Part shown: positions 2,856 to 57,945 of the stretch, piece after piece | Position numbering within the stretch: the first letter of the stretch is position 1 | How the letters are laid out: each line of letters starts with the position of its first letter | Source: Owenia fusiformis | Taxonomy: Eukaryota; Annelida; Polychaeta; Sabellida; Oweniidae | Assembly: GCA_903813345.2 (NCBI GenBank) | Contig: CAIIXF020000007.1 | Span: forward strand, 24,723,564 to 24,787,563 | Length of the DNA: 64,000 bases | Direction: 5' to 3' | The notes under the pieces: generated by a model | The model's input: only the letters and a program-made list of their open reading frames with translations | Database searches by the model: none | What the model was told of the DNA's origin: nothing | Position numbers and translations under genes: made by a program

Positions 2856-4134
2856 TAGCGATGACTACCAGGATTTCTTTTCAGGAATGCAGTATAATGA
2901 TTTGGTGCTTGCTTTTACTCTTGGAAACCAATGTTCTGATAGAAATTGCTGTAGAGGATATTTTCACCAGTCTAATGTACAGGCACAGACATCTACCAAA
3001 TACCAATTCTCCATTCATCTACACGTGACAATTTTATGACGTTTTACTGCAGCAGTGCATGAGACTGAACAGTAGTTCTGGTTTCTTGAATTTCATTAAA
3101 ACTATTATTTCCGAGGTTAATTCTGCATTTAAGATAACATGAAAGATTTATCTAATTCTGAGAATGTTGTGAGAGTAGACATATGTGCCAGGTACTAAAA
3201 CATGCATTTCCTCAGCTATTAACTGCAAACCCTTTTAAACAGGATATAAAATCAAGTTTAATTCAGACAGAAATATCTGAAACTAAACATTTGGTTCTTC
3301 TCTCACTTCTTTCTCAAATTTTTAATGACTTTATAAACTTTGGTTTATATTATACATGTGACATTTTATGTAGTATTTCTCACCTTTCCTTTATCTTCTG
3401 AGGAAATTCCAACGGCCATTAAATTATACAATAAAACTATTGAGATATGAACAATGGTGAACATATTGATAATGAATAAAAATACAACCTTGAAACTCTA
3501 TCTTAAGAATCAAAAATCAATAATAAGGTCATAAAAAATCTTATTCTTCCTGGTTGTATTCAAAACTCAACAAATGTCTAGAAAGTTGAAAAGTAACAAT
3601 AGTACTCCATGAATCTTTTCAAAAACTAAAGAAGCCTCTGTCTCCAAAAGTCTACGTTCATACATAGATGCATATAAAAATTCCAATACATTATATAGGA
3701 AAGACATACTTCTACTAAAATAACAATGTATGTTTAAAAGGCTTTTAGTGTATACCTTTTATATACAGGGGGCAGAATCAATAAAAGCCTTTCAGGAGTT
3801 TCAGGAATTCTTCTGGAGGATTCCTCAAATAAAAATAATAACGAAAAGTACGAAAATTAATAACTCTCACAGATAATTACAGGCACATCATAATTTCACA
3901 AGTTACCTAAGCTACCTTTGTAAAACACCAAAAAATGACAAGATTATCTTTTAAAAATCAAGTTTGTCGTTAATTTATATTTGATGATGTAATTTGATGA
4001 AAAATGCATGATAGTCATCATGTATTTTTATGCCAAGACTGATCAATAATTATATGTAATACACATAAAACTAGAGACCTGGCTAGTTTGTATATTCTCG
4101 TGACAAAAGGATCATGGTGGCCATGCTAATTTAA
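2856..4134. other. No gene seen; AT-rich unassigned sequence
   Basis: Only short open frames occur, for example at 3183-3401, with composition like the surrounding non-coding DNA. No repeat family used in this annotation is recognisable here. Confidence 0.45.
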
Positions 4135-4290
4135 TGGTTTTCTCTCTAAACTTTGCAAGAACCACCTCATTTTCTTGCATTTCCATATAATCTAGAGTGT
4201 TATTTACATGTCTGTTCACTTTATTCCTCGCTTATTCCACTCCTTTCCTCTCTATGCTATGTTTTAAATTTTGACAAAAGAGACACTCTT
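4135..4290 (-). repeat. Family A module, minus orientation
   Basis: It begins TTTCTCTCTAAA and contains TTTTCTTGCATTTCCATA, CTAGAGTGTTATTTACATG and CACTTTATTCCTCGCTTATT. It may pair with the plus-oriented copy at 5975-6115 as the outer arm of a nested inverted structure. Confidence 0.75.
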
Positions 4291-4570: not shown

Positions 4571-5349
4571 GATGGGGCAAAACAAAGGATAGCCACCAAA
4601 CCATTGTTTTGTAAAAACTAGGCCATTTGGGAAAAATTTAGATATTTTACAATATGATTACTTAACTAAGGAGAGAGCATCATTGTCTTGTGAAAAAATA
4701 AAGGCACTACACTTATTTTGTAAAATGAAGACACTGTACATATGCCATTATTTTGTATGCAAAGTGGTTGACAGAATCAATAAAGTGGATTAGGAGTCGT
4801 AAACGTTGAGTTAACCGGATTATACCTTTTCAACACTACTTGTATAAACATTACAACGGAGCCAGGTCTCGGTCATTGATCTTACGTCGTCTCACAAAAA
4901 TATCTAATTTTATGACATTGCATTGTTTTGCTAATTTTGACAAAGTGTCCTGTGAAATTAATGACTTGGGGAAATGTCTTGGGGAAATACAAATACATGA
5001 TGAATCCAAGCAAATGAAGACCTGTAAACCATAGAAAATTCATCTTTTGATAATACTCACAACAACATTTTACTAATTATGTATTCCATGTACAGGTTAC
5101 TCCTACTACAAAACTGCATCGAAACTTATCAAGGTCATTTCCTGGCATAAAAAATTACTCGAGTTCAAATCTATCGGAAGTTAATTACGGAATCTCGAAA
5201 ATCAAAAATTGCAATCTCAACTTGGAAATTGGCAAATAATTCCAAGAGCCAGTTGCTGAAGTAACATTTGTTCCATGATGAACAACATGATTTGTTTGTT
5301 AGAGTATTTTACCAAATCTACAATGGATCACATTGACTTCCCTGAGAAA
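4571..5349. other. No gene seen; interior between inverted family A copies
   Basis: A 64-codon open frame at 4840-5034 has no recognisable domain or splice context. The stretch is flanked by oppositely oriented family A modules, so it may be the interior of an old large foldback element. Confidence 0.4.
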
Positions 5350-5500
5350 ATATGGCATGATGGTCATTTTAAAATGAAAAACTGATGGGGAAAGAGTGGA
5401 ATCAGCAAGGAATAAAGTGAACAGGCATGAAGTTGATACTCTAAATTGTGTAGAAATTCAAGAAAATAAGCATGTTCATTCAAATTTTAGAGAGAAAACT
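5350..5500 (+). repeat. Family A module, plus orientation
   Basis: It contains AATCAGCAAGGAATAAAGTG, ACTCTAAATTGTGTAGAAAT and the end TTCATTCAAATTTTAGAGAG. Confidence 0.8.
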
Positions 5501-5974
5501 AGTGGAGTATGTGTGACTGAGAGAGAAAATTTGTAATTCCAATATCAATAGATAGTGAGAGTGACACTTGAATGGCTATTGCAATGCTGATTGAGGGTAT
5601 AAAGTAATGTCATAGTGACAGATATTTTGATATCCTTATAGAAACTGTCAAAGATATCCCCAAGATTTCACTCTATGAACAATTAATAAAAATCAGGCAT
5701 TGTCTCATATTCCCGTTATACACTGGTTATTAGAGCCTCGCAACACATATTGCAAGATATAGTATACTGTCTCACAAGTTATCATTCAGAGATAACCCAA
5801 CTTAAAGGACCAAAAGGTAGAAATACTGTATATGTGTTGTTACAAAAATCATTTGTTTATTTTCTGATTCACTGACAGTAACTTCTGCAATGCATTAAAA
5901 AACAGTTTTCCAAGGATGACTGATTACAATATGGTCTTTGCAGAGTTCTAAAGCCAGCCAATAAGAAACATATC
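5501..5974. other. No gene seen between two plus-oriented family A copies
   Basis: AT-rich sequence with no open frame of note and no recognised repeat. Confidence 0.4.
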
Positions 5975-6115
5975 GTAATGGTCATATTTCAAAGTACAAA
6001 ATAGAGAGTAAAAGAATGGAATTAGCAAGGAATAATGTAATCGGGCATGTAGTCAACACTCTTAATTGTATAGAAATATCAGAAAATCAAGAAGTTTATT
6101 CAAATTTTAAAGAAA
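5975..6115 (+). repeat. Family A module, plus orientation
   Basis: It contains GGAATTAGCAAGGAATAATG, ACTCTTAATTGTATAGAAAT and TTATTCAAATTTTAAAGAAA. Confidence 0.75.
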
Positions 6116-6576
6116 AATAGAAGTGTAATGATACAACCAATTTTTTGATGTGGGCACTATCGGCTTAACTCAATCAGGAATTAGGACTAATATGACTTCT
6201 TATTGGTTTAGTGACACAGACTTATTGGCACCAAGCCTTTCTCCGACATACAAATTCAATCTAACTTCCAAGCTGTCAATTAACCAATCAAAAGCTATCA
6301 AACAATATTTATGCAAATGAGATTAAATTCCCATAATCCCAGTCAACATTAGAAGAACAAAATGAAATTATAAGAAACGATTGATGTTATCTCTTAGGCC
6401 AAAACAAATATAAAGAGTGCATATGTATTTGCAATATACAGTACGAAGAAAGAATTATGTCAGTTCAATATAAGGTCTTTAAAAACAGAAACATAAGCTG
6501 AACTCAAATCTCAAATTACAATAAATCATATGTGCGGGCCGGCTATTATCAAAGTAACAGAGAGGAACTAACATAT
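6116..6576. other. No gene seen; unassigned sequence
   Basis: Unassigned AT-rich sequence between a family A copy and a family C element. No exon or repeat is recognised. Confidence 0.4.
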
Positions 6577-8900: not shown

Positions 8901-9424
8901 TGATGACATCAGATAGGGAGCAGGCATAGTTCAACGTTCTACATATTGGTCAATTATTCCCTCGTGGGCAATTAGACAGGTGAAAGCTAGACAGGTATTT
9001 TATTAATTAAAGGTATGAGGTTAACAAAGGTGACCATTCGCCCCCTCATTGTTTACAATGAAGTACAAAAAAGAGTGCTGTTTTATACCAGATGTTTTCT
9101 GCTGTTTCAATATTTCTACAACTAAACTATAATAATTATAGATACATTTAATAATCTCTAAACATGTATGTAAAAGGAAGTATCCTGTTTCAAATCCCTG
9201 ACATTATCAATATGATTCAGTAAAATTAGTATTCAATTTGACTTGTATAAAATTTGAACAGATGGTTGCTTCATTTTCTTACGTATTGGAAAACAATCTA
9301 GTTATGTAACCTGCATCAATATTTCATGATATATGACCACTAATCCCTTTACATTATGCAGTATTTATAAATTGATTGAATCATAATTCCTATGTCAAAT
9401 ATTCCTCCCCGATGAACATGATTT
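8901..9424. other. No gene seen
   Basis: AT-rich unassigned sequence between the CpG-rich patch and a family A copy. Confidence 0.4.
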
Positions 9425-9570
9425 TACAAAATTTCTCTCAAATTTTGAATAAACTGCTCCATTTTCTTGCATTTCTATACAATTTAGAGTGTAAACTACA
9501 TGCCAGTTTACTTTATCTCTTGCTAATTTCACACATTTCTTCTCTTTTTACATTTTAAAATATGACCGAT
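9425..9570 (-). repeat. Family A module, minus orientation
   Basis: It contains TTTGAATAAACTGCTCCATT, TTGCATTTCTATACAATTTA, ATGCCAGTTTACTTTATCTC and TTGCTAATTTCACACATTTC. With the plus copy at 10635 it could define a 1.4-kb inverted-ended element. Confidence 0.8.
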
Positions 9571-10634
9571 CGTGACATTTTTCTGACAATATGCCATTTC
9601 GTAAGAAATTAAGGCAAGAGAACAAAGAATGAAAATTATGATGCATCACTGACTCATTGGTCAACCAATAACATAACATAACCAAGATAAGATAGGGAAA
9701 CTGTCATCTCTGGTCCAAAAATGCCACAGCCACAGAAAACACCATACATGTGATAAATGATTAATAGAGACAGATAGAGTCCCTCAAGTTAAGGTAGTAT
9801 TCACGAATTCAACTGCTGGCTGATGGTTTAACCAACCCTTTTTATAGCCAACTCGATTAAATATAAATGGTACAGACAAATATAGCGGTAGGTTATTTAT
9901 ATCTAAATGAGTTGGCAATAAAGTACTAGATTAATACATCAACGAGCAATTGAATTTGCAAATGCTACCTTAGTCATTTCTTGAGGCTGTCAGTTGGACT
10001 GTACATTTCCATAATTTGGCTATTATGTCCAAAAGTTTGCATGTGAGTAGTTGAGAAATATGGGATACCAACTCAATGGACATAATACGGATTATAGGAT
10101 TAGACATATGTAAAATGTTTTGTAGTGGACAAGACTATTACATTAAGCCAACACATGGTGAAATTCTCATAAAATCAATGCTTTATATGTATCTGAATTC
10201 CAACATTTCTCTTTGATCTTTTGAGTATCTATTCTTTCTTTCTGGAATATTAGATTGCAATTTAGATTGCAATTTAGAATGCTCGTTTTACGCCTATTTA
10301 TTACTTAATTTCTTACTGTCTCACTTTATATCCTGTTTGACATTAAAAATCCACCGATAGATATTTTTTTCGAGGAGTTTAAGAGAGACTCTTCAGTGTT
10401 TGAATTTCAATTTCATTGAAGGGAGTCGATTTTTCAAGTTGTCGTGATTATTACGTTCGACTCAATCAAAGGAATTTGATTTGTTACAAATTTTGCCAAT
10501 TATACTCTTTGAACATTGCGATAGAAGAAACTGATCAACTTAACAATCTGGATGTTTTTATAGATTTTTATATTTTTATGGATGATACAACACTCTACAA
10601 GTGGTACCTAATTACACTCTACTTCAAAAGAAAT
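9571..10634. other. No gene seen; interior between inverted family A copies
   Basis: A short tandem duplication of TTTAGATTGCAA occurs near 10250-10280. A 75-codon open frame at 10416-10643 runs into family A sequence and is not credible as a gene. Confidence 0.4.
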
Positions 10635-10800
10635 AATTCATGACAGTTGCATTTTAGAATGCAAAATAGAGAACAAAGGAGTCAAATTAGCAAGGAATAA
10701 AGTAAACAGGCATGTAGCAAACACTCAGAATTGTAAAGAAATGCAAAAAAATCAGACAGTTCATTCAAATTTTAAAGAGAAAAAGTACATAATAAGCATG
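10635..10800 (+). repeat. Family A module, plus orientation, well preserved
   Basis: It contains GTCAAATTAGCAAGGAATAA, AGTAAACAGGCATGTAGC, TTGTAAAGAAATGCAAAAAA and TTCATTCAAATTTTAAAGAG, followed by an AATAAGCATGA outer end that also follows other copies. Confidence 0.85.
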
Positions 10801-11419
10801 AACAACTTGTAGATTTTCTCGAAGGGATTCCACCCGGAGGTATAATATCACACCTTTTGAACAATACACAATTTGTAAAGAAAAAACAAATTATCCGTAT
10901 AAAAGGTATAAACTGCTGGACTACAGTTTCCTGATAATGTGTGAATGATGTCTAAATGCGTTATGATGAATAGGCAAGTACTGAAGAGAATCCAATGGCG
11001 CCAGATTTGAATAGATCTATGATCAATATGTCTGGGATTACAAAGGGAGATGGGAAAAAACAATAGATTTTCAGTCTGAAGTATCCGCTTTCTGGTAAGA
11101 TAAACACAATCTCAAACCCTCGGCAGAACTTTCAAATTCTTCATTTTTCTACCTTAAAATATATTAAAAATATATGAAGACCCTGATAAACACTCAGTTA
11201 TATCCTAACAAAGGTTACTCACCAATATCACAATGATAACCACTTTTTATCTAAAGCAGCGAGATATGTAACATTTTTATATTACTTGAAAAATGTTTGG
11301 GGGCATTAATATAGTTCAGAGGCTATGAGCACTTACAATATTTATCCATCCATCGCCCCAATCTATACTACTAACGACAATAGACATGAAACAACCCATC
11401 AGAAAAATATCACACTTAT
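10801..11419. other. No gene seen
   Basis: A minus-strand donor-like GTAAGTGC lies near 11330-11338 (plus-strand ACTTAC). The upstream minus-strand sequence is open for a short distance, but there is no good acceptor, so I do not call an exon. Confidence 0.35.
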
Positions 11420-21269: not shown

Positions 21270-21710
21270 TTGCTCATTTTGGTCTCTATCTCTCTAAAAT
21301 TTGAATAAAATGTCTGAAATTTTTAGATTTCTATATCATTCAGAGAGTGAACATTATGCCTGTATAGTTCATTCCTTGCTGATTTCACTCTTTTTTCATT
21401 TATTTTGATGAGGAAATACATGACTAGTGTGAGATTCTGTCCAGGAGAGACAAACAGCTCAAGAGCATCCCCTCTCAGGGAGTCTAGCATACTGTCTCCC
21501 TCACATCTGCCATGGATATTCCCAGCAGACGACTTATGGAAAAAATGTCATGATAGTCTATTTTGAAATGCAAAATAGAGTGGAAAAGAATGAAATCAGC
21601 AAGAATTAAACAAACAAACATATAGTCAACATTCTGAATTTTATAAAAATGTCAGAAAACTAGGCAGTTCATTCAAATTTTAGAGAGAAAATGTGTGAAA
21701 TAGCATGAAT
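21270..21710. mobile_element. Family A foldback element: inverted pair with short loop
   Basis: The left arm, about 21285-21425, runs TCTCTCTAAAATTTGAATAA through TTCATTCCTTGCTGATTTCA. The right arm, about 21540-21690, is its diverged reverse complement, ending TTCATTCAAATTTTAGAGAG. About 115 bases lie between. This shows family A modules can be the two terminal arms of one element, as in a MITE or foldback transposon with very long inverted repeats. I could not define a target duplication. Confidence 0.75.
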
Positions 21711-23039: not shown

Positions 23040-23725
23040 GCTTATTTTAGTATATTTACTTTAAAATTTGAATGAACTGAATAATTTTCTGGTATTTGTA
23101 TATAATTTAGAATGTTGACTACATGCCTTTTTTTTTTATTCCTCGCCGAGTCTCCTTAATTTTGATGTATTTTGTGTTTCAACACATGACTACTGTGAGA
23201 CTTTATTTATTGGTAAATCTCAAAAATGTAATTTGCAAATTCTGCCAATCATTCAGTGCAGTCTTTATTTACAGGCCCAAGAGAGAAATCTCACGTCAAT
23301 GTCATGTTTTAAAATGAGAAAATACATGGAAAAGAGTGGAATTAGTAAGGAATAAAGTAAACAGGCATGTAATCAACACTCTAAATTATATATATAACTT
23401 TTATATAACTTTTATTGACATATTGTATCATAACATGATTACATTAGTCATAAACTACTCACTAAAACTACTATCTACTACTAAACTACTTACTAAAACT
23501 ACATCTTTATAAAAATATACATGATTTGATATATTTACAGAAAGCATACAAGAAAGGCAAAATATTTTAAAGTGTGATGCACAAATTTTGCTGATTATTC
23601 TAAATTGTTAAATGAATGGTATATAAATTTACCAAGATGTCGTTGGAAGATGATATTATCATTAGAAATTATATTAGAAATGCAAGAAAATCATGCTGTT
23701 TAATCAAATTTTAGACAGGAAATAA
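23040..23725. mobile_element. Family A foldback element split by a LINE-like insertion
   Basis: The left arm starts near ACTTTAAAATTTGAATGAAC (23060). The right arm begins near 23300 with GTCATGTTTTAAAATGAGA. The right arm stops at 23391 and resumes at 23675 with TAGAAATGCAAGAAAATC, completing the family sequence. Removing 23392-23674 restores a normal family A arm. Confidence 0.8.
23392..23665 (-). mobile_element. LINE-like 3' end inserted into family A, 9-bp TSD
   Basis: AAATTATAT flanks the insert at 23383-23391 and 23666-23674. On the minus strand the insert ends with TGTCAATAAAAGTTATATAA followed by a repeat of AAGTTATATA, that is, a polyadenylation-like AATAAA plus a short tandem tail. 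The same end occurs at 52958-53035. A truncated body, terminal microsatellite tail and TSD fit a 5'-truncated non-LTR retrotransposon or a SINE sharing its tail. No coding part is visible in these 274 bases. Confidence 0.65.
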
Positions 23726-24861: not shown

Positions 24862-25768
24862 AGACATTTGTGACTCCTCACAATTAAAGGGAGACTGAAG
24901 CTAAAAAGGCGTTGGATGAATACCATCAAACTGCAAATTATATACAGAAAAACAAAGGAGCAAAGTACATATACATTTTATGAGAGAAAAGATATAATTG
25001 ACAAATTGCAAAACATTTTGGTTGAGAGAAGCCTCCTATCTCTACTCTGCAATACTATCATTCAATACCATTAAATCATAATACGGTCCAATATGTAATA
25101 AAACGTGGCATTTATAATGATTTTGTGTGCTTCAAATGAGAAATGTGATTGACCTAGGCGCCTACGCTAATTCCGTTAATTGATGTCAGTTAGATGTCAG
25201 ACAGAGCGTAGATGACATCACGCTTAAAGTACTTTTCAGGTCGATGATGTTAAAATACAGGATTATTATGTAACATATGGTTTCTTTCTCTTATGGAACA
25301 GCTTTGATACCCTTTCCAATGATTTTGATTTTTAAAAGAGAGCTTCATGTTATGTTATGTCCTTTGACACTCAGGTTAGGGATTGGGTGGTATATAGGAA
25401 CTTATGTGAGACATAGATATATTAGTTGTTCACTGGGGGTCCATCAGTGGCTCTTGAGAGGTGCCCACAAGCATGAAGTACATGTAGATTTATAGTCCAA
25501 TGTCTGCATTGGTCAACCACAATACATCCCTCTATTGATCTATACCAACAAAACAGATATGTCAGTGTCTCCAAAAGTCTTATCACTCATCCAAGAAGGA
25601 GCAAAACAAGAGCGTGATGTTTTCTTAAACTTAAGTTTTACATCATTTCTTCAGATGGTTCCTTTGCTACCATGATTTCTCAAATGAACTTATCACAGAA
25701 CTCCTCCTTCTACAAAAATGATATCACTTAACAACAATCTTTTGATGTTTTGATTCAGATTCTTACCT
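24862..25768. other. No gene seen; possible 5' end of another TTAA element at 24884
   Basis: TTAAAGGGAGACTGAAGCT at 24884 resembles a TTAA element terminus, but I see no matching right end. An AAAAGAGAGCTTCAT motif at about 25337 belongs to the family B subterminal motif. A CpG-containing stretch lies around 25150-25250. Confidence 0.4.
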
Positions 25769-26096: not shown

Positions 26097-26337
26097 ATTC
26101 ATCTTTATTCATCTTCCATTCTTGTATACAATGTGTATCTAATCAATGTAATGGCAAAAGGGGTGAACAAGAAGAGTGTGGCTAGAATGGTGATAATTAT
26201 GGCCTGCTGCAACAACTTGTGGAAGTCATGAAAATTCCAGTAAGTGATCTCATATAAACAAATGACAAACTAGATTTATTGAAACTATTTCAGGAACACA
26301 TTAACCCAGAATCTCTCATTTGGAATTCTATTTCAGA

Positions 26338-26671
26338 AGTTGAGAATCAACATATGCAAGTTGGGATTCATCATATGTAAGTTAAGATTCATCATATGTA
26401 AGTTGGGATTCATCATATGTAAGTTGAGATTCAACATATGCAAGTTGGGATTCATCATATGTAAGTTGAGATTCATCATATGTAAGTTGGGATTCATCAT
26501 GTGTAAGTTGAGATTCAACATATGCAAGTTGGGATTCATCATATGTAAGTTGAGATTCAATATATGCAAGTTGGGATTCATCATATGTAAGTTGAGATTC
26601 AACATATGTAAGTTGAGATTCATCATATGTAAGTTGAAATTCATCTTTTCAAAGTTGATGTTCTTTATGTA
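26338..26671. repeat. 21-bp satellite, 15 units with higher-order alternation
   Basis: Fifteen units of the type AGTTGRGATTCATCATATGT plus A run from 26338 to 26652, with a degraded unit after. GGG and GAG versions alternate, making a 42-bp dimer. A variant ending AACATATGCA returns about every four units, hinting at an 84-bp order. Because 21 is divisible by three, both strands stay open and give 7-residue repeats (LHMMNLN and ICKLGFI types). I regard these as by-products rather than proteins. Confidence 0.9.
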
Positions 26672-28180
26672 AGTTTTGAAATACCATTGTAGATAGGTAG
26701 GTTATGTTTTGGTACAAGCAGTAGGAATCATAGACAGAAACCTTTAATTCTAGCTTTTTTGGTTTCCTTTGTTTGTATTGGGTCTTTATGCTTTCTCTTT
26801 CTGTTTCTGTCGAACAAGAGGAGCAGTTTGGGTTATGACAAGCCATATTATAAGATCTGAGAGACACCATAAAGTTAAACCATTTCCAAGAGTTTGATTT
26901 TGCTTGCGCTTTGAGTAATGTACTAGGTTTTGGCACTCAGGATATAAACCTAAAGCTCAGTGGAAGACCCATAACTTGAATCATTATCAGTGTTTATGTC
27001 CATGCTATAGTTAAGATCTCCACACCACTTCACTTGAAACAGGTGATTTCTGGCTATCATGGCTAAACCACTTTTTTATGTGCAACTTGTGGGGTTTCAT
27101 GATATCAATTAGTGCACTGGGGCTTACTTCACCAGTCCAGAATCTCAGTTTGTTTATTATTCAATGTTCCTTTCCCGTTTCCTACCATCTATTTATGATG
27201 TGATTTCAGACTTGGTCTTGTTTGAACAACTGACAAAGTTTAAATTTAACAAAGGGGTTTGTCTGTAGGAAAGACAATAATTGACATCATAATTTCTAAG
27301 TCAACATCATTTCTCCTCCTCTCCCAAGTTGTTGGACAGTTTGTTTGTTAATGTATGCTTTCTGCTGCTTTATCAGTGGTTGCACACAGCCGAAGTGCTG
27401 CTAATCTCCATACTGGGCTATGAACTTCTCCTGATTTCTTATTGTGGCCTTTGACTCCTTCTTAACATCCCATCATAAACAGGTTATCACAAAGACAAGT
27501 TGATTTTATGAGTAATAGAATGGAAAGGAGTGGAATTAGCAAGGTAAGCATGAGTGAAATCAACAAAAGTCAGAAAATAAACAAGGCATTAACATGCAAA
27601 AGGTCACCACTATCCATTTGTTACAGACACTGACCACCACCCCCCAAACACTAGACACCATCTACAAAAAAAGTTGAGATTATAACAAAAAGTCTATTAC
27701 CATTTAATATAACAACAAAGGAGTACATATGTTAAGTAGAAAAGAGAAAATCTACTTCCTATGATAGATAACGAATTAAATTTTTTGAAACATCACCAAG
27801 TACCACTAAAATAATTGAAAATAGATGAACAATTGAGCATATGAGTAGCTTTTAACTTAGGAAATTATTAATAACACAAGTGGGTATCATATGATTATTG
27901 GCAGGTTTAAAATGGTGGGCTGCCAGAACATGTGGAGACATGTGCGCAAAAGTGTGAATCTTGACACTGTGGGTGTGTATTAGCTATATTTAGTGTCTAA
28001 TTAGTTATTTTGTTGTTACCCCACCAGTGTGAGATCTTACGAATCCAGCTTTTGAAGTTTTCCAGTTTCCCCCAAGTGTGAAAAGACATTGTTGTCCAAT
28101 GCAATTACATCATGATCTAATTACAAGTTGGATCTCTTTAATAAAGAAGCAAACAATTGAAAATGTAGATGTGTGGTCAA
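26672..28180. other. No gene seen; family A fragment near 27510-27560
   Basis: The 95-codon minus frame at 26649-26936 has no recognisable domain. GAAAGGAGTGGAATTAGCAA then GGTAAGCATGAGTG near 27518-27555 is a shortened family A copy, not a splice donor. Confidence 0.4.
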
Positions 28181-28189
28181 CTCAGTTGA

Positions 28190-28541
28190 TACCCTGCGTG
28201 CAGAGTCTAGTTATAAACTACCCTCAGCCTAGTATAGACTAAATTACAGTTTAGCAGTCCCGCCCCAAAGATTGGTGCCTCTGACAGTCCGGATAATAAA
28301 TCATTTGATAAATCTACCATGTTGAACCTTACTTAACCAATCAGCGATGTGGAAGGAACACACGCTAATTACGTCCTCATTAACTATGGGGTGGTGTCAG
28401 AGGAAATTACCATATAGAAGGTCGTCCGTATTTTGACGACGAAATCGGATTGGCTCGGTAAAATCAGAGATTTATTGTAAACTGAAAGAGTGAAGATGAA
28501 GCTCTCTTTTAAGAAGTGAAGTCAAACGAATGCAAAGGGTA
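28190..28541 (+). mobile_element. Family B MITE (TACCCT termini), copy 1, perfect 9-bp TSD
   Basis: It begins TACCCTGCGTGCAGAG and ends CGAATGCAAAGGGTA, giving a six-base exact terminal inverted repeat. CTCAGTTGA is duplicated exactly at 28181-28189 and 28542-28550. The internal motif GAAGCTCTCTTTTAAG lies at 28498-28513. Copies at 32893 (plus) and 32030 (minus) also have 9-bp duplications. No transposase is present, and Mutator-like or Merlin mobilisation is an inference from the duplication length. Confidence 0.9.
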
Positions 28542-28597
28542 CTCAGTTGACGTTCTCGATGGACATGGCACATTTGCATTTCAAAATGTGCAACTTA

Positions 28598-30229
28598 TGC
28601 CTTGGTCACATTTGCTCCGATTTTCATTACGGCGCCTGGTCAATTGAGTATTTTGTTCAAAATTGAATACAATATTGAACAAGAACACAAATGTGTACAA
28701 AATGTCCCCACCTATTGGTGATCCCGTCAAATGGTTATCCTAAAAATGAGTAGACAAGACTTTACCGACACAATTTGAGGACGGAAAATCCAAAATGGCT
28801 GCCTTAAAATTTACCCAGAATGCCCAAAAATTAGTCAGTTCTAGATTTTCATACTAAGAACCACCCCTGAAAATTTGAAATTGATCCGTCACACAGTTAA
28901 CCAAAAAACATGTAAACAAGACTTTACAGACAAGATTTGAGGACAGAAAATCCAAAATGGCTGCCTTGACATTTATCCAGAATGCCCAAAAACTAATCAG
29001 ATCTAGATTTCCATACTAAGAATCATCCCTGAAAATTTGAAATTGATCTACCAAACAGTTCACCTAAAAACGCTTAGACAAGACTTTACGGGCAAGATTT
29101 TAAGACGGAAAATCCAAAATGGCTGCCTTGACATTTATCCAGAATGCCAAAAAACTAATCAGATCTAGATTTTCATACTGAGAATCATCCCTGAAAATTT
29201 TAAATTGATCTACCAAACGGTTCACCTGGAAATGCGTAGACAAGATTTTACAGACAAGATTTTAGGACGGAAAATCCAAAATGGCTGCCTTGACATTTAC
29301 CCAGAATGCCCAAAATCTAATCAGATCTAGATTTTCATACTGAGAATCATCCCTGAAAATTTGAAATTGATCTACCAAACGGTTCACCTGAAAATGCGTA
29401 GACAAGACTTTACAGACAAGATTTTAGGACGGAAAATCCAAAATGGCTGCCTTGACATTTACCCAGAATGCCCAAAAACTAATCAGATCTAGATTTTCAT
29501 ACTAAGAATCATCCCTGATAATTTGAAATTGATCTACCAAACGGTTGACATGAAAACGCGTAGACAAGACTTTATAGACACGATTTTAGGACGGAAAAAT
29601 CAAAAATGGCCGACAATAAAAAAGTGATTATGAGTTTTTGCTGAATTCGTTTAACAAAATTATCACATATAACTACTGTTAACAATAACATAGGCTTTTA
29701 CAACAAAGTACACCTGAAATTATTTATAAAGCTAAGAAATAGTTTAAGTATGAAAACTGAAAAACACCATTCAATATGATACAAAGTATTATCGTGCGCT
29801 AACTTTTCTTAAAACATTCAAAATGGCTGACATGACTGAGCTAACAGGTCCAAAACCTAATCAGATCTAGAATGAAGTGAGCTGAACAAGATATTAAAGT
29901 TTTAAAAGCAACTGTGAAGCCGTTTTTCTTAAAGTTTGCAGACAAGGATTTTAGCATTTGACTTCAAAATGGCCGACAGGAAGTAGGTATCGAGTTAATT
30001 TTTTTTCATCCACATCTGTATGCACTCATAAGTTATCCCTGAAAATTTGAAGGTGATATCTGTAGCGGTTTTGGAGAAAACTGCCGGACGTACGGACAGA
30101 CAGACGGACAGACAGACGGACGCGCCTAGGCCGACAATATGGCCCCACACTATGTGGTGGGGACATAATAACAAAACACTCAATTGGCCGGCCGCCGGCC
30201 GATGGATCGGAGCAAATGTGACCCAGGCA
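28598..30229. mobile_element. Family F Harbinger-like element carrying a 162-bp tandem array
   Basis: The left terminus TGCCTTGGTCACATTTGCTC and the right terminus, reverse complement TGCCTGGGTCACATTTGCTC, match closely. TTA borders both ends (28595-28597 and 30230-30232). A three-base TWA target is characteristic of PIF/Harbinger transposons. The 1.6-kb interior has no transposase. It holds six 162-bp units plus decayed ones, then a GACGGACAGACAG stretch near 30095. It is therefore a non-autonomous carrier of satellite DNA. The small foldback at 51736 is a relative. Confidence 0.75.
28720..29610. repeat. 162-bp tandem repeat, about 5.5 to 6 units
   Basis: The landmark GGACGGAAAATCCAAAATGG recurs at an exact 162-base spacing, near 28779, 28941, 29103, 29265, 29427 and 29589. 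Each unit also has AATCAGATCTAGATTTTCAT and CCTGAAAATTTGAAATTGAT. Decayed relatives continue at about 29815-29870 and 29930-30070. The unit length falls in the range seen for many animal satellites. Confidence 0.95.
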
Positions 30230-30232
30230 TTA

Positions 30233-31409
30233 ATAGAACAGTTATATCAAGCTATAAAAGCTATAAGACAGCTATGATTTTCATCTTTGAGCTGCAATAT
30301 ATTGATTGATTTTGATGTACTTTTATAGTTCTCCAGCTACTTAGACATACTGTCTCTGGGGAGAGCATTAGCATGAATGTAAAATCTTAATTGTAAACAT
30401 GGAATAAATCATATCAGTGTAATATGTTGTTATTTTGCTATATCACCATAGTAATGTAGTATGATCTAGCATTTTCTTAGCAATGCCTCAGATTTAGTTT
30501 GAAACCAGGGAAAGTTGCGTTTTTTTTTTAAATGTCAGAAAAACCGAAGAAGTGCCGTTTAAAATGTTGTCATATGCAGCATGAAACTTATCTCAATTTA
30601 CTGGATTTGCAATCTTCCCATTAGGAATGAAACATAAATTCAGATAGAGGATATTGTAACTCTAATTTTCTCATCTGAATGTACCCACAACTGTCAACAT
30701 ACATTAATAGATTGACAAGACCTCTGACTCAATCTAATTAGTGAATGTCTCCTGTGATGTTTATCAATCAAAGACAACAAATTGAAAATGTTGCAGTCTC
30801 AGGTCTTGATGAGTGATTTGCTTGATTTTTTAACCCACACCATTTTTTAACCTGCACCATGTCTATGACCCTTTAATGCTACCCTATCAGATTCTAAAAT
30901 ATATGGTGGTATATCAGTACTTCTTGATCCATGAAGATTAGTTTTGTATCACCTGAGAGGGGGAGGGGTACATTTGGAAACAGGGAACAGTGAGCAGTAT
31001 TAAAGGCAGAGAAAGCATTCATATCTAGGCATCATTGCTTTTTCGGAAAGATGAAAAATGTTCAAGTGAAGATGTGTAATGAAATGGAGATAAAGCCATA
31101 TAATTGGAAAGGATAGGCCAGGCCCATGGGGAGATGAGACATGTACTGCAGGGAGCAAAAACAAGCATCAGGTCTCATTTAGAACTAGTGGATATGTGAG
31201 TACAATATGTCTTGCTGAAAAAACATTCCGTTTTCACATTCATGCAGTGTAGCCCCATTCCATACCGAAAATAGTTCAAACTTTTAAATACTTTCCAAGC
31301 TAATATGACAGAAATCTGGAATTTATACCTCTCCTCTATATTTGTTTTTTACTTCAAGGCACTAACTTCATTGCTTTTATTAAACTTTCCTATAGTTTGC
31401 CTTTGCTTC
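30233..31409. other. No gene seen; right part is the flank of an older family B relative
   Basis: Unassigned AT-rich sequence. The last 30 bases (CTTTCCTATAGTTTGCC and CTTTGCTTC) match the terminal region of the family B relative at 43736, and are continued after the family D insertion at 31990. Confidence 0.4.
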
Positions 31410-31989
31410 TTAAAGGGTGACGCATATCGTTTAGCAAATCGAACGCTCGTTTCTGGTGTTGCTCACCGTTTAGTATAAAAGGCCCGATCCCGGAATAATA
31501 CTCAAGGGTTCACAGGTTCGAGATCGTTGTGTCAACACCTCTAACTGTTATATAGCATAAATATATTGTAGATCGTCACACATTTATAAAAGGGTGATTT
31601 TTATTTTGACAAATCAATTCCACATTTATGGGTGAAGTTTCAGGATCTTCTATTTGTGTATAATAAGGAAAAATTGGCATCTAAATTTCCCCATAACGTA
31701 ATAGCACACAGCTTGGCATATGAAATATCCTACAAATGAAACAAAGCAAGACAAACCGGTTTCTAATACAAGGATTTATATTGGCTGTTGTACATGTATT
31801 CTTTGAACGCAATCACTCTTTGGATAACGTTTTCAAAATCATTATAAACGGATTACTTTATCTCATAGACAATTTCAATAAACTGGATTTTACAGAACTC
31901 CCCTTATTTCTTAAAAATGGACTGATCCAGTTAATTCGCCTGGAGCCGCCATATTGTTTTTATACGGGATGCTAAACGGAACCCTTTAA
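31410..31989 (+). mobile_element. Family D TTAA element, copy 2
   Basis: It is about 98 percent identical to 1584-2163 with the same TTAA-AGGGT and ACCCT-TTAA borders. The insertion target is the TTAA inside the conserved motif CTTCTTAAAAGAGAGC: the left flank ends GCTTC-TTAA and the right flank resumes TTAA-AAGAGAGCTTCATC. The 79-codon frame is at 31736-31975. Near-identity of two copies 30 kb apart indicates recent activity. Confidence 0.85.
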
Positions 31990-32029: not shown

Positions 32030-32340
32030 TATCCTTTGCATTCGTTCGATAATTTCAATAAATCATTGAAGTCACCAAGTAATCAGAATTCCATGTCAAA
32101 ATAGGGACGACTTTCTATGTCGAGTCATTTTCTCTGATGTAATCGCATAATTATTATGCACACGTTTAGCACTTGCTCCTTCCAGCTCACTGATTGGTTG
32201 TGAATAGGTCAGCGCCGCAGGCGTGAAATGATTTAAGACCCGAGCTGTCCGGGGCATCGGTCGTTGGGGCGGGGCTGCTAAACTGTAATATAGTCTATAC
32301 AAAGCAGAGGGTAGTTTATAACTAGACTGCGTACAGGGTA
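32030..32340 (-). mobile_element. Family B MITE, copy 3, minus orientation, 9-bp TSD
   Basis: It starts TATCCTTTGCATTCG and ends TGCGTACAGGGTA, the reverse complement of the family B ends. CTCTAACAC (32021-32029) and CTCTAATAC (32341-32349) form a 9-bp duplication with one mismatch. It is about 40 bases shorter than the other copies because the part with the GAAGCTCTC motif is missing. It lies inside an older related element together with family D copy 2. Confidence 0.85.
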
Positions 32341-32870: not shown

Positions 32871-32892
32871 GGGAGGTCCATATTCTCTAAGA

Positions 32893-33242
32893 TACCCTGC
32901 GTGCAGACTCTAGTTATAAACTACACTCTGCCTAGTATAGACTATGTTTCAGTTTAGCAGCCCCGCCCCGAAGATTGGTGCCTGTGACAGCCCGGGTAAT
33001 AAATAATTTCAAATCTACCACGCTGATCCTTTCTCAACCAATCAGCAAAGTGGAAGGAACATGTGCAAAATACGTGCTCATTAACTATGCGGGGATGTCA
33101 GAGGAAATTACCATATAGAAAGTTGTCCGTATTTCGACGACAAACTCTGATTGGCTCGGTGAGATCAGATATTTAATGTAAAATGAAAGAGTGAAGACGA
33201 AGCTCTCTTTTAAGAAGTGAAGTCGAACGAATGCAAAGGGTA
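32893..33242 (+). mobile_element. Family B MITE, copy 2, 9-bp TSD
   Basis: It runs TACCCTGCGTGCAGACTC to CGAATGCAAAGGGTA, about 350 bases, and aligns throughout to copy 1. TCTCTAAGA (32884-32892) and TCTCAAAGA (33243-33251) form a 9-bp duplication with one mismatch. GAAGCTCTCTTTTAAG is at 33199-33214. Confidence 0.9.
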
Positions 33243-33251
33243 TCTCAAAGA

Positions 33252-38290: not shown

Positions 38291-39454
38291 ATTGGGGTGG
38301 TCAGCAAGAATTTTGCGGAATGGTATGCCTGATTTAGTCTATATCCCTATTGAGAGATATAATGCATAATTTCCGAAGAGCTCTTATAGCTTGACCACTT
38401 GGCGTGTCAGCATGACCCCGAGGGAGATGAAACAATAGCGATCATTTGTGCCACAAAATGATAACATATATCGCTTGTACAGGGCACACGTATTATCCTC
38501 TTGCGTGTCTGTCAACTTTCAACGATAAAGCCAATAATCTACTCATGATATCTTCCTCAGGGACACACAGGAATTAAAAGGATTAATAAGACAAAAGCCA
38601 ATGACAATTTATTAATAGATGAATTTTAAGGACAATGGACATCACAAAATGTCTGTAGCAGAGTCAATATACATTTGAAGATTACCATATACAAATCTGA
38701 TTAAACTAAAAGAACTGGTCGTGAGAATTTACAAGCTAGATTTGACAATGGTTTCATATAAATTGACCGTCATTAGAGATTACGAAATAGAAATGAAATG
38801 AAAGTAATGTTTATTAATATTAACAGAGCTCTGGGTTTTAAGAGTTGAGCAAATACAAGTGAATGAGAGGGCATGTTCACTCAATCAAATGTCTTATTAA
38901 AACCTTTCATCTTTGAAAAACCCTGACATTTTTCTCCTCGACAGAGGCTTGAGAATTCTCCACTGTAGAGGAATTAGCTTCCTGTAGACACGGACCAAAT
39001 GAATTTCAATGTATTAATAACTTTCTATCTGCATGCGCTTGAATTTAATTCTGCTGCCGTCAAGGTTATTCAACAAAATTTCTCCATACAGTTTGAATCA
39101 AGTACATGTATCTGATTTTCTAGCATTTCTATATAGTTAAGGATGTCTACTTCAAACCAATTTTGTTGATTCCCTACAATATATAATACACTTTCTATAT
39201 TTGAAACAGAAAAACAATGACAATTTCCACGTCTTCACAAGCTTTGTCAACACTTCGTTCAACATTTTATCGAACAGAATATCATTCACAACAATAGTAA
39301 TGATAAAATCAGTTTAGAGAACTCTACAGAAGTCGAACTGATCAAAATCAAGATTTAATATGATTTACAACTCTTAACAGTATACTTGATTGCTGATAAA
39401 AAAAATTGGTATAGCCATCGTTTGAAAGTTCTATCCAAACCTCACTATTTCATG
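38291..39454. other. No gene seen; family A fragment near 39110-39215
   Basis: TGATTTTCTAGCATTTCTAT and ACACTTTCTATATTTGAAAC near 39115-39210 match family A in minus orientation. The rest is unassigned. Confidence 0.4.
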
Positions 39455-39595
39455 GTATTCCTCTCTAAAATTTGAATGAACTGCCTGATTTTCTTGCATT
39501 TCTGTACAATTTAGAGTGTCTCCTAAATGCCCATTTATTTTATTCCTTGCTGATTTCACTCTTTTCCATGTAATTTTCAGTAACAAAATATGTCC
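39455..39595 (-). repeat. Family A module, minus orientation, well preserved
   Basis: It contains CCTCTCTAAAATTTGAATGA, ACTGCCTGATTTTCTTGCAT, TCTGTACAATTTAGAGTGTC and TATTCCTTGCTGATTTCACT. No inverted partner lies within 5 kb downstream. Confidence 0.85.
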
Positions 39596-43830: not shown

Positions 43831-44509
43831 ACTACATGGAGTTTTCTTGCAGGGGATCTCTTCGGCAGCGTGAAATTTGGGTCAAAGTACATGATATCTG
43901 GGTCAAATAAAACCATATCTTGATCAAAGGAATCTGTATTATTGATAGGATAAAATAGCAGAATACTATGACACTATATATACAAAAAATTTTCATAGAG
44001 AATAATGTCATATTCTGTTGCTGTGCCTTCACAGTATTTCAGCATGATGAAAATAGGTCAGCATACTTTTGGGATATCATATCAAAACTACAAAATGATT
44101 AACTGGCTAGAACATTTCAAAGAAGGTGTTCAAATATGAACATCATTTTTGTAAAAGCTTCAGGTATTTGATGTTTGTGCTCATTTAGGATATTTTGCTA
44201 TTCATTAGAAAAGTACATTCCTATAACCTTTCACATAAAAACCTTTTCAATAGCAGCAGATGCTAAACACACACAAAAACATCCACCCAAATAGCCATTT
44301 AAATTTTTTTTGAAGTCCTATACATTTCAACTGTTTGTAGTCTATTATGAAATATGCCAAGGATAGATAGCTATTGAAGGAGGGGTGAAAGTGATCTGAT
44401 AGACATGAAAAATGACTGATAATTTGTGTTCAATAGGAACAAAAAGGAGAGGCATAAGAATGTCAATGTGTGAAGTCTCATTCATCTCGGTCTCTCTTAA
44501 AAAACTTCA
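43831..44509. other. No gene seen
   Basis: AT-rich, no repeat or exon recognised. Confidence 0.4.
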
Positions 44510-44670
44510 AGATGATCATGTTTTAAAATGTAAAATAAAGTAGAATATAGTACAAAAACAAGAAATTAAATTAACAGGCATATAGTCAACACCCTAAATT
44601 GCATGGAAATGAAAGAAAATCAGACACTTCATTCAAATTTTAGAGAGAAATAAAGTAAAATAAACACGAG
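44510..44670 (+). repeat. Family A module, plus orientation
   Basis: It contains TCATGTTTTAAAATGTAAAA, ACAGGCATATAGTCAACACC, CTAAATTGCATGGAAATGAA and TTCATTCAAATTTTAGAGAG. Confidence 0.85.
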
Positions 44671-46469
44671 CAGACGGACACGACCAGCACAGGTTGACAC
44701 AAAGAAACTCTTAACATGTCAGTATTCTTTTTTCTGATCCAGTAAATGGAGAAACTGTGAAAACACCCTCACTGAACAAACTTTCACACATGCAAGAGAA
44801 AAGATCTAAGTTCTTTAGATTTGCTACAAACTCGAAGCTGATTCTATTTCATATGTTCAAAGGTCTGTAATATATTCCTTGAAAATTTCACAGTTCTGAC
44901 AAACATCTCATGCAGTATCTTACTAATCAGCATAGAACATCCCTGTTAAAATATACATCTGTCTTATCATGTGTACTGAAAGGCTTATGCTCACTTACAA
45001 TCTAAAACTAACAAAGATACCCCTAATGAATTAAAAAATTTGGCTATTTTTAAAAATCATGAAGAAACAAATTTTTACACAGTTACCAATTTGATATTGA
45101 TCTTTGACCTTATCACATTTCTGGTCCCCCACCCCCTGCCCCGGTTCCAAGTATCCATTTATTTGACAGAACATAACAATATGTTCAGGATGATGTTCTT
45201 TGTGGGGGCTTGGCTTATAGATATAGGATTCCTGATTGGGAAGTACACCTGGTGAAGACCTATCACTATCAGACATAGCTATGAGTGGCTCTGACCAATA
45301 TACAGTTCAACCCGTACAAGTATGTAAACATATTTAAATCTCTTATGAGCCGTCCCCAAAACGTATTGAAATTCCTGTCTGTTACAAATAACCTTACGAT
45401 GTGACCCCTATAAAAGTCACTTTGAGTGATATTTGATATAGGGAGTCGTTTGTGTCATAGAGGTATTCATCTTGAGTGTTTGTCTTAGAAACGTGCTGTA
45501 CATGACAAGTTTCACTGTAGAAAAATTAGTAGCAACCCCTTGGTTATTTTATTACACCGTTGGGTCTGTACAAACAGTAGGTTTATTGAAAGCAAACATG
45601 GAAGAGACTAAGAGACGTGAAAAAATATCACAAATGTATTTCCCATAAAATAAAGTCTACCACTGTGCAAGTATACTTTATATAGGATTGATGTTAAAGA
45701 CTAACCACAGCACATTGGTTAATAAGAGCCACTCAAGAGGTGCCAGGATTTTAAGTCCCATAAAGTTATTCTAAGGAATACTTCCTATGGAGACGAACTG
45801 TTCCTGTTTTATGAACCACAACTTTTACAGATAATTCTACCTTATCTCAAAGTTTATTTTATTTATTCTTTTAAAGAATAAGTTGTTTCTCCTTTGTCAT
45901 ATATATGAATTGTACTTTCAACCTCAACTCTATTAGTTCACAAATCCCTCCTTTCCTATGCTTTATCAATTTTTTGGCCACCCTTATTATCCATTTCCAC
46001 AACCAATTTCTCTAAATGTCTTGCTTAGTCCTTTCCTTTTCCCTATATTCTACAGTCCAACACAGCAAATATTACATTCATACAAGATGGGAACATAAAA
46101 CACCATTACCTACTGAGACAGACATATAGGTATGCTGTTTATTTTGCCAACTGTGTATGTGTAACCTCATTTTAAATACTGGAACAAGGAACAGTGCCAG
46201 AGTTTTTCAAATGATAACTCTGGTCATGTTGCAGACATTGTCGAATCAGAATTCACCTGGTTTTCAAATGCAGCCACAATGTGTGAAAAATGGCCATTGC
46301 TCAATCACTGGTATGATAAAATGGTTTCATTAATTTAGTAAATCAACACGAATCTATGTGATCAATCATTGTACCTTACAGCTATCTGGTATATACTTAT
46401 TAGGATACTTATTGCATCTCCATTTTGCGACAGAGAAATCTCTCTGTTTGAACAAAATATAGCAAGGGA
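44671..46469. other. No gene seen; C-rich stretch near 45125
   Basis: Short open frames at 45031-45276 lie opposite each other on both strands and have no recognisable domain. The rest is unassigned. Confidence 0.4.
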
Positions 46470-51732: not shown

Positions 51733-51735
51733 TAA

Positions 51736-51879
51736 TGCCTGGGTCACATTTGCTCCGATCGGCGCCCAGCCGATTGAGTGTTTTGCTCAATATTGTATTC
51801 AATTTTGAACAAAATACTCAATCGACCAGGCGCCGTTGTGAAAATCTAAGCAAATGTGACCAAGCAAGCAAAAAAGGCA
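51736..51879. mobile_element. Family F foldback MITE, Harbinger-like
   Basis: It begins TGCCTGGGTCACATTTGCTC, and its right half is the inverted counterpart, GCAAATGTGACCAAG, followed by an extra 12-base piece and GGCA. TAA borders both sides (51733-51735 and 51880-51882). The arms pair over about 55 bases, including GGCGCC segments and ATTGAGTGTTTTG with CAAAATACTCAAT. It shares both termini with the 1.6-kb element at 28598. Confidence 0.7.
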
Positions 51880-51882
51880 TAA

Positions 51883-52957: not shown

Positions 52958-53130
52958 CTATATATAACTTTTATATAACTTTTATTGACATCTTGTATCA
53001 TAACATGATTACATTAGTCATAACTATGAAAAAACTAAATATCTAAACTACAAATACTAACTAAGGCAAAAGTACAAAAATATATACGAGATATACAAAA
53101 ACCCAAAATACCTGTATGGATCAGGATGGG
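52958..53130 (-). mobile_element. LINE-like 3' end, second copy
   Basis: On the minus strand the terminus AATAAAAGTTATATAAAAGT, preceded by CATGTTATGATACAAGATG, matches 23392-23470 over roughly 75 bases. The inland part diverges, as expected for independent truncation. It lies 1.8 kb past the endonuclease fragment at 54961 and on the same strand, so both could belong to one decayed element. Confidence 0.6.
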
Positions 53131-57774: not shown

Positions 57775-57945
57775 ATTCTCTATGATCTCATGTACTTTCC
57801 TCTCTTTCTCTCTTACATGTCAATGAACCGTATCATTTCCAGGCATTTTTGTACAATTTAGAGTGTTAGCTCTATGTATCTTTACTAAATTCCTTGCTGA
57901 TTTCACTCTTTTTGACTCTATTTCACATTTCCAAACATGACCAAA
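57775..57945 (-). repeat. Family A module, minus orientation
   Basis: It contains TTTCCAGGCATTTTTGTACA, ATTTAGAGTGTTAGCTCTAT, AATTCCTTGCTGATTTCACT and a TCACATTTCCAAACATGACC inner end. Confidence 0.75.

Follow-up and report, generated by a model that had tools for sequence, protein, structure and literature searches.

Evidence for a HINE-type element with a 162-bp tandem array nested within a Harbinger-like MITE of Owenia fusiformis

Results

The outer element and its inverted ends

In the 64,000-nucleotide stretch of Owenia fusiformis DNA analyzed here (the window), a segment of 1632 bp (28598-30229; hereafter the long copy) is bounded directly on both sides by TTA and contains a tandem array with a period of 162 bp (Table 1). 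Its left end bears the twelve-base motif TGCCTTGGTCAC on the forward strand (28598-28609) and its right end the inverted partner TGCCTGGGTCAC on the reverse strand (30218-30229), the two differing by one mismatch. Taken alone this motif is not significant: with up to two mismatches allowed, it is matched five times in the window against 2.84 expected, a count reached in 13 of 100 shuffles. One such match, at 25505 with two mismatches, was set aside as showing no extended similarity to the element in BLAST. The motif is part of longer inverted arms, comprising 28584-28621 paired with 30206-30243 (84%) and 28630-28657 paired with 30170-30197 (86%), which span about 60 bp with an interruption and include a perfect core of 18 bp; the longest such core among 2000 random pairs of window stretches was 13 bp. 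Taken as a whole, the outer ends are real.

The TTA found on both sides of the long copy agrees with the 3-bp TWA target duplication described for PIF/Harbinger MITEs in the available text of PMC9033116, and the element is likewise short with terminal inverted repeats. A TA duplication of the mariner type was rejected, as it would give asymmetric termini. Hence, we regard the outer element as a foldback MITE of about 140 bp that is probably Harbinger-like, as judged by its TTA duplication, and the name that the earlier note gave to these ends is a plausible one.

Autonomous Harbinger elements encode a DDE transposase and a Myb-like protein. A Pfam scan of seven of the nine stop-to-stop frames of at least 110 aa in the window gave nothing above a cut-off and three weak matches with E of 0.06-0.07; the remaining two frames run along opposite strands of a 21-bp array at 26337.

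Table 1. Features of the long copy, its insert and the solo copy (window coordinates; a point marks features without strand)
Feature	Position	Strand	Basis
Left TTA of the 3-bp target duplication, outer element	28595-28597	.	Sequence
Left part of the outer MITE (Harbinger-like), 85 bp	28598-28682	+	BLAST to 51864-51778, 92.0% over 88 columns; gapped alignment
AACAA, left copy of the 5-bp repeat at the inner junctions; host or element (ambiguous)	28678-28682	.	Sequence
Inner inserted element, about 1487 bp, probable HINE / non-autonomous Helentron-like, 5' end at right; boundaries within about 5 bases each	28683-30169	-	Alignment gap against the solo MITE; internal features
Short 3' palindrome ACACAAATGTGT	28685-28696	-	Sequence; fold of the end not above shuffles, z 0.46
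3' subterminal inverted repeat of 11 bp, pairing perfectly with 30156-30166	28702-28712	-	Length of 11 bp attained by 3/2000 random pairs
162-bp tandem array, 5.4 units	28728-29610	-	TRF, unit comparison, autocorrelation
Variable segment, 483 bp, with decayed monomer pieces at 29814-30057 and 30032-30080	29611-30093	-	Score 51 (best of 200 shuffles, 29); profile search
(GTCY)n microsatellite, GACGGACAGACAG stretch	30094-30121	-	TRF, sequence
Inner inverted repeat 7 bp from the 5' subterminal repeat and complementary to it with one mismatch	30139-30148	-	Read from the sequence
5' subterminal inverted repeat, 11 bp	30156-30166	-	Sequence comparison of the ends
AACAA, right copy of the 5-bp junction repeat	30170-30174	.	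Sequence
Right part of the outer MITE	30170-30229	+	BLAST to 51785-51735, 81% over 59 columns; gapped alignment
Right TTA of the target duplication, outer element	30230-30232	.	Sequence
Solo copy of the outer MITE, satellite-free; paralogous empty site of about 133 bp, interrupted by 11 further bases at 51865-51875	51736-51879	-	Motif search, BLAST, sequence, gapped alignment

A solo copy of the outer element as an empty site

Another copy of the outer element, in the opposite orientation and free of satellite, lies 21 kb away. It has TAA beside it at 51733-51735 and 51880-51882; at its right end 11 extra bases, CAAGCAAAAAA, precede GGCA and the TAA. We accept this TAA pair as the same TTA duplication on the other strand, a reading that rests on one interrupted end. 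The stretch 51736-51867 folds as a near full-length hairpin (-41.8 kcal/mol, z -10), with none of 200 shuffles folding as well, in keeping with a foldback MITE. In a gapped alignment of the solo with the long copy, 28601-28677 and 30170-30234 (8-base gap) match and all that lies between them is absent, as one large gap of about 1.49 kb; the score is 206, whereas 332 control alignments with random window stretches reached 90 at most; the other 68 of the original 400 controls had been dropped for lying near the two loci. BLAST likewise places the left arm of the long copy on the right arm of the solo copy at 92% identity over 88 columns. Since the solo copy follows the long copy collinearly at both ends and has none of the intervening 1.49 kb or so, it can be used as an empty site, a single paralogue diverged by about 8% on one arm and 19% on the other, and the long copy can therefore be read as a MITE of about 140 bp interrupted at 28683-30169.

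No other copy of the outer element was found in the window, and BLAST returned no second copy of the interrupted form there. The comparison of unit numbers among copies sharing these termini, proposed in the earlier note, thus reduces to one further copy in the window, which carries no satellite at all. The same note had named as one refutation that the termini might be two unrelated fragments; this is ruled out by the collinear solo copy and does not apply, since the outer termini are the two ends of one TTA-flanked transposon.

The 162-bp array and its decayed remnants

The array occupies 883 of the 1632 bp between the TTA flanks (54%). TRF gives a period of 162 with 5.4 copies, 90% matches and 0% indels, and autocorrelation over periods of 20-399 reaches 0.90 at 162 and 0.87 at 324, the next best value being 0.37. 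The first five units are 83-97% identical among themselves, and the sixth ends after about 73 bases. That inverted, TTA-bordered termini enclose 1.6 kb with a 162-base array, as the earlier note had it, is thus confirmed by the sequence, TRF and autocorrelation; its 162-base period holds, and in place of its six units 5.4 are recognisable.

Beyond the array, a profile search of the window with 28728-29699 masked recovered remnants of the monomer at 29814-30057 (E 8.9e-11) and 30032-30080 (E 0.0093), along with four further matches at E of 0.93 to 7.4. These remnants, with the GACGGACAGACAG stretch at 30094-30121, uphold the suggestion that the array continues in decayed form up to that stretch, which is the sole run of at least three GTCN units found in the window on either strand. 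The segment 29611-30093 resembles a pattern reported for mollusc satellites, in which fragmented monomers alternate with unrelated sequence beside such arrays (PMC5139131, in the part available).

Exact 20-base patterns from the unit, the outer end and the inner end had no matches in viral contigs and one among prokaryote genomes, in a Flavobacteriaceae MAG; the 321 bases around that match show no further likeness to the 162-bp unit, and we hence take it to be due to chance. Among the literature matches listed for short stretches of the sequence, no paper had a repeat-related title. Searches against Rfam at gathering thresholds and for tRNAs under bacterial settings returned nothing.

Anatomy of the insert and its junctions

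Read on the minus strand, the insert presents, in order: three bases; an 11-bp repeat; an imperfect inverse of it 7 bp inward; a GTCT/GTCC microsatellite; 483 bp with monomer remnants; the array; the 11-bp repeat again, inverted; and a short palindrome close to the end. Among 2000 random pairs of window stretches, 3 attained an 11-bp pairing like that of the subterminal repeats. The fold of the 5' end is moderate (z -1.72, 10 of 200 shuffles as good), and that of the 3' end has a z of 0.46, with 135 of 200 shuffles at least as good. With the insert known from a single copy, its ends are set by one junction pair.

Both inner junctions share AACAA/TTGTT, a 5-bp repeat that may be either a duplication or bases common to the ends. 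Simulated non-duplicating insertions gave an overlap of at least 5 in 197 of 20000 cases with the target base taken as T; the T-rich ends of Helentrons would raise this figure. The target itself is T-rich, reading TTTTGCTCAA in the solo copy and TTTTGTTCAA in the opposite arm of both copies, as described for HINEs. An insertion between T and T would require the target base to have been T, the base of the opposite arm; the solo copy carries C at this position.

Other repeats in the window

Further repeats were noted in the window. An interspersed family of about 110-180 bp, with roughly 69-88% identity between copies on both strands, is present in more than 12 copies by BLAST (2694-2849, 4122-4275, 5345-5498, 5966-6120, 9421-9584, 10629-10805, 21539-21709, 39445-39594, 44499-44672, 57805-57942 and others), one of which has the core AGCAAGGAATAAAGTAAACAGGCATGTAG. 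A 580-bp direct repeat joins 1584-2163 and 31410-31989, 30 kb apart at 97.8% identity, and could be a recent duplication or a transposon pair. A repeat of about 360 bp (28188-28545) stops about 50 bp to the left of the long copy and has copies within 5 kb (32891-33247, 32053-32340), direct at 87% and inverted at 73-74%. The array at 26337-26675 has a period of 21/42 bp with about 15 units of 21 bp, and is open from stop to stop on both strands (122-129 codons). Finally, a direct repeat of about 110 bp (23389-23496 and 52959-53064, 88% identity) has a short TATATAACTTT array in both copies.

Discussion

The proposed nested insertion and its alternatives

Taken together, we propose that the locus very likely represents a nested insertion, with a HINE-type element inside a foldback Harbinger-like MITE; HINEs (Helentron-associated interspersed elements) are non-autonomous Helentrons. 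The following parts described for HINEs are present in the insert: (i) paired subterminal inverted repeats, given as 11-15 bp for the class and here a perfect 11 bp; (ii) an inverted repeat complementary and close to the 5' one, at 30139-30148; (iii) a GTCY microsatellite on the 5' side of the array, at 30094-30121. The 162-bp array would then probably have arrived with the HINE-type element rather than as part of the MITE family. The converse nesting, with a MITE inside a HINE, is ruled out by the order of the ends. The case for an insert separate from the outer MITE is stronger than the case for its name: the AACAA at the junctions, the T/C difference at the target base, the weak end folds and the 3' spacing agree less well with a HINE, which makes that name, and with it the placement among the non-autonomous Helentrons, probable and not proven.

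Two of these misfits bear on the most probable alternative, in which the insert would be a tandem-repeat element of another superfamily that duplicated 5 bp of its target and came to a HINE-like order by convergence. The AACAA at both junctions and the weak 3' palindrome are what such an element could leave; yet the subterminal repeats, the complementary repeat, the GTCY microsatellite, the unit length and the order of the parts all match the HINE scheme, and we consider this alternative unlikely. Less probable again is a different order of events, with the HINE entering the MITE elsewhere and the interrupted MITE then moving here as one 1.6-kb unit. The outer TTA flanks, intact on both sides, accord with it, and either order of events would leave them so; it is opposed by the lack of a second composite copy in the window and by an insert that parts the two arms of a hairpin-like MITE, and a single late insertion takes fewer steps. 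Lastly, the 162-bp satellite could be a regular component of a Harbinger family, dispersed by the transposase of that family. This would explain why the whole 1.6 kb is bounded by TTA and inverted ends, but it is the least probable of the three, as the sole further family member found in the window runs collinearly through the insertion point without the satellite and the insert has paired ends of its own. The latter two observations also tell against the earlier view of the satellite as an internal part of a Harbinger-like element.

Briefly, we advance the following plausible history under the nested insertion. First to land at the site would have been a foldback MITE of about 140 bp, with inverted ends and a TTA target duplication. 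A HINE-type element with a (GTCY)n microsatellite and a central 162-bp array would then have entered its T-rich middle in minus orientation, so that the satellite reached the locus as HINE cargo. Such an element is presumed, following the published mechanism, to be copied by rolling circle using the Rep/helicase of an autonomous partner, which is not in evidence here. Thereafter, slippage or unequal exchange may alter the number of units; those closest to the 5' end appear to have decayed, as the remnants suggest. That the interrupted MITE might still be mobile as a composite, with a cut-and-paste transposase dispersing a satellite first brought by rolling circle, is conceivable and most improbable.

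The locus illustrates how a satellite array can seem to be part of one transposon when another has brought it; the solo MITE 21 kb away provides the empty site, which is the evidence needed for reading such composites. The dispersal of repeats of about 160 bp by HINEs and the insertion of these elements into other transposons are already in print (PMC7492417, in its available text). As for the idea that a mobile element disperses the satellite, it accords with this published role of the HINE class; the Harbinger-like element as the carrier is not supported.

Comparison with known systems

As far as the available part of PMC9033116 goes, the outer element is like PIF/Harbinger MITEs in being short, with inverted ends and a TTA duplication, and differs in that no transposase was seen and no named family was matched by its termini. 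For the insert, the closest parallels lie with the HINEs, whose layout is described in oyster (PMC7492417) and, with somewhat different spacing, in mites and Drosophila (PMC4067079), again from the portions available. The Cg_HINE of Crassostrea gigas has, in order, subterminal inverted repeats of 11-12 bp, a complementary inverted repeat 1-12 bp away, a GTCY-type microsatellite, a variable segment of 10-500 bp, the array, the 3' subterminal repeat and a palindrome; its arrays are short, with repeats mostly of 140-180 bp and cluster consensus lengths of 138-181 bp (PMC7492417, text available in part). According to the same partial text, oyster HINEs prefer TT within T-rich sites and have been found by an empty-site test inside other transposons, mostly DNA transposons; frequent integration of this kind is expected of HINE-type elements, and HINEs are reported to make no target duplication. 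Among the literature matches listed, there was no report of a Harbinger MITE interrupted by a HINE, an absence that carries little weight.

Measured against that account of Cg_HINE, our insert agrees in the order of its parts, its T-rich target and its location inside another transposon, and its 5' end fits the scheme, with the subterminal repeat 3 nt from the end as placed here and the complementary repeat 7 bp inside. The variable segment of 483 bp and the unit of 162 bp also fall within the oyster ranges (PMC7492417). The insert differs in the 5-bp junction repeat and in a distance from array to end of about 45 against 60 bp, the comparison being one of layout. The mite HINEs, as far as described in the part of PMC4067079 at hand, have the 3' subterminal repeat 38-60 nt and the palindrome 8-35 nt from the end, in contrast to 19-24 and 2-7 nt here.

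Two further systems of this kind deserve comparison. The Pearl family of bivalves (CvA, CvE, CvG; Gaffney et al. 2003), with up to six repeats of about 160 bp, has been re-classified as a non-autonomous Helentron (as cited in the available parts of PMC7492417 and PMC11136912) and resembles the insert, by its description, in its short array of such repeats. DINE-1 of Drosophila (PMC4067079, in part) shares subterminal inverted repeats, an inverted repeat nested with the 5' one, a microsatellite and optional tandem repeats, and its 3' stem loop has a weak palindrome as its counterpart here; it has a 13-bp subterminal repeat and core, and the comparison is again one of layout, the 3' spacing being set here against mite HINEs only.

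Finally, MITEs that contain a satellite, such as miDNA4 of Xenopus (Scalvenzi and Pollet, as reviewed in the available portion of PMC12628747), resemble the long copy in having inverted ends around a tandem array. However, in those the repeat belongs to the MITE family, whereas at our locus the other copy of the MITE is free of the repeat and the array has what appears to be a carrier of its own.
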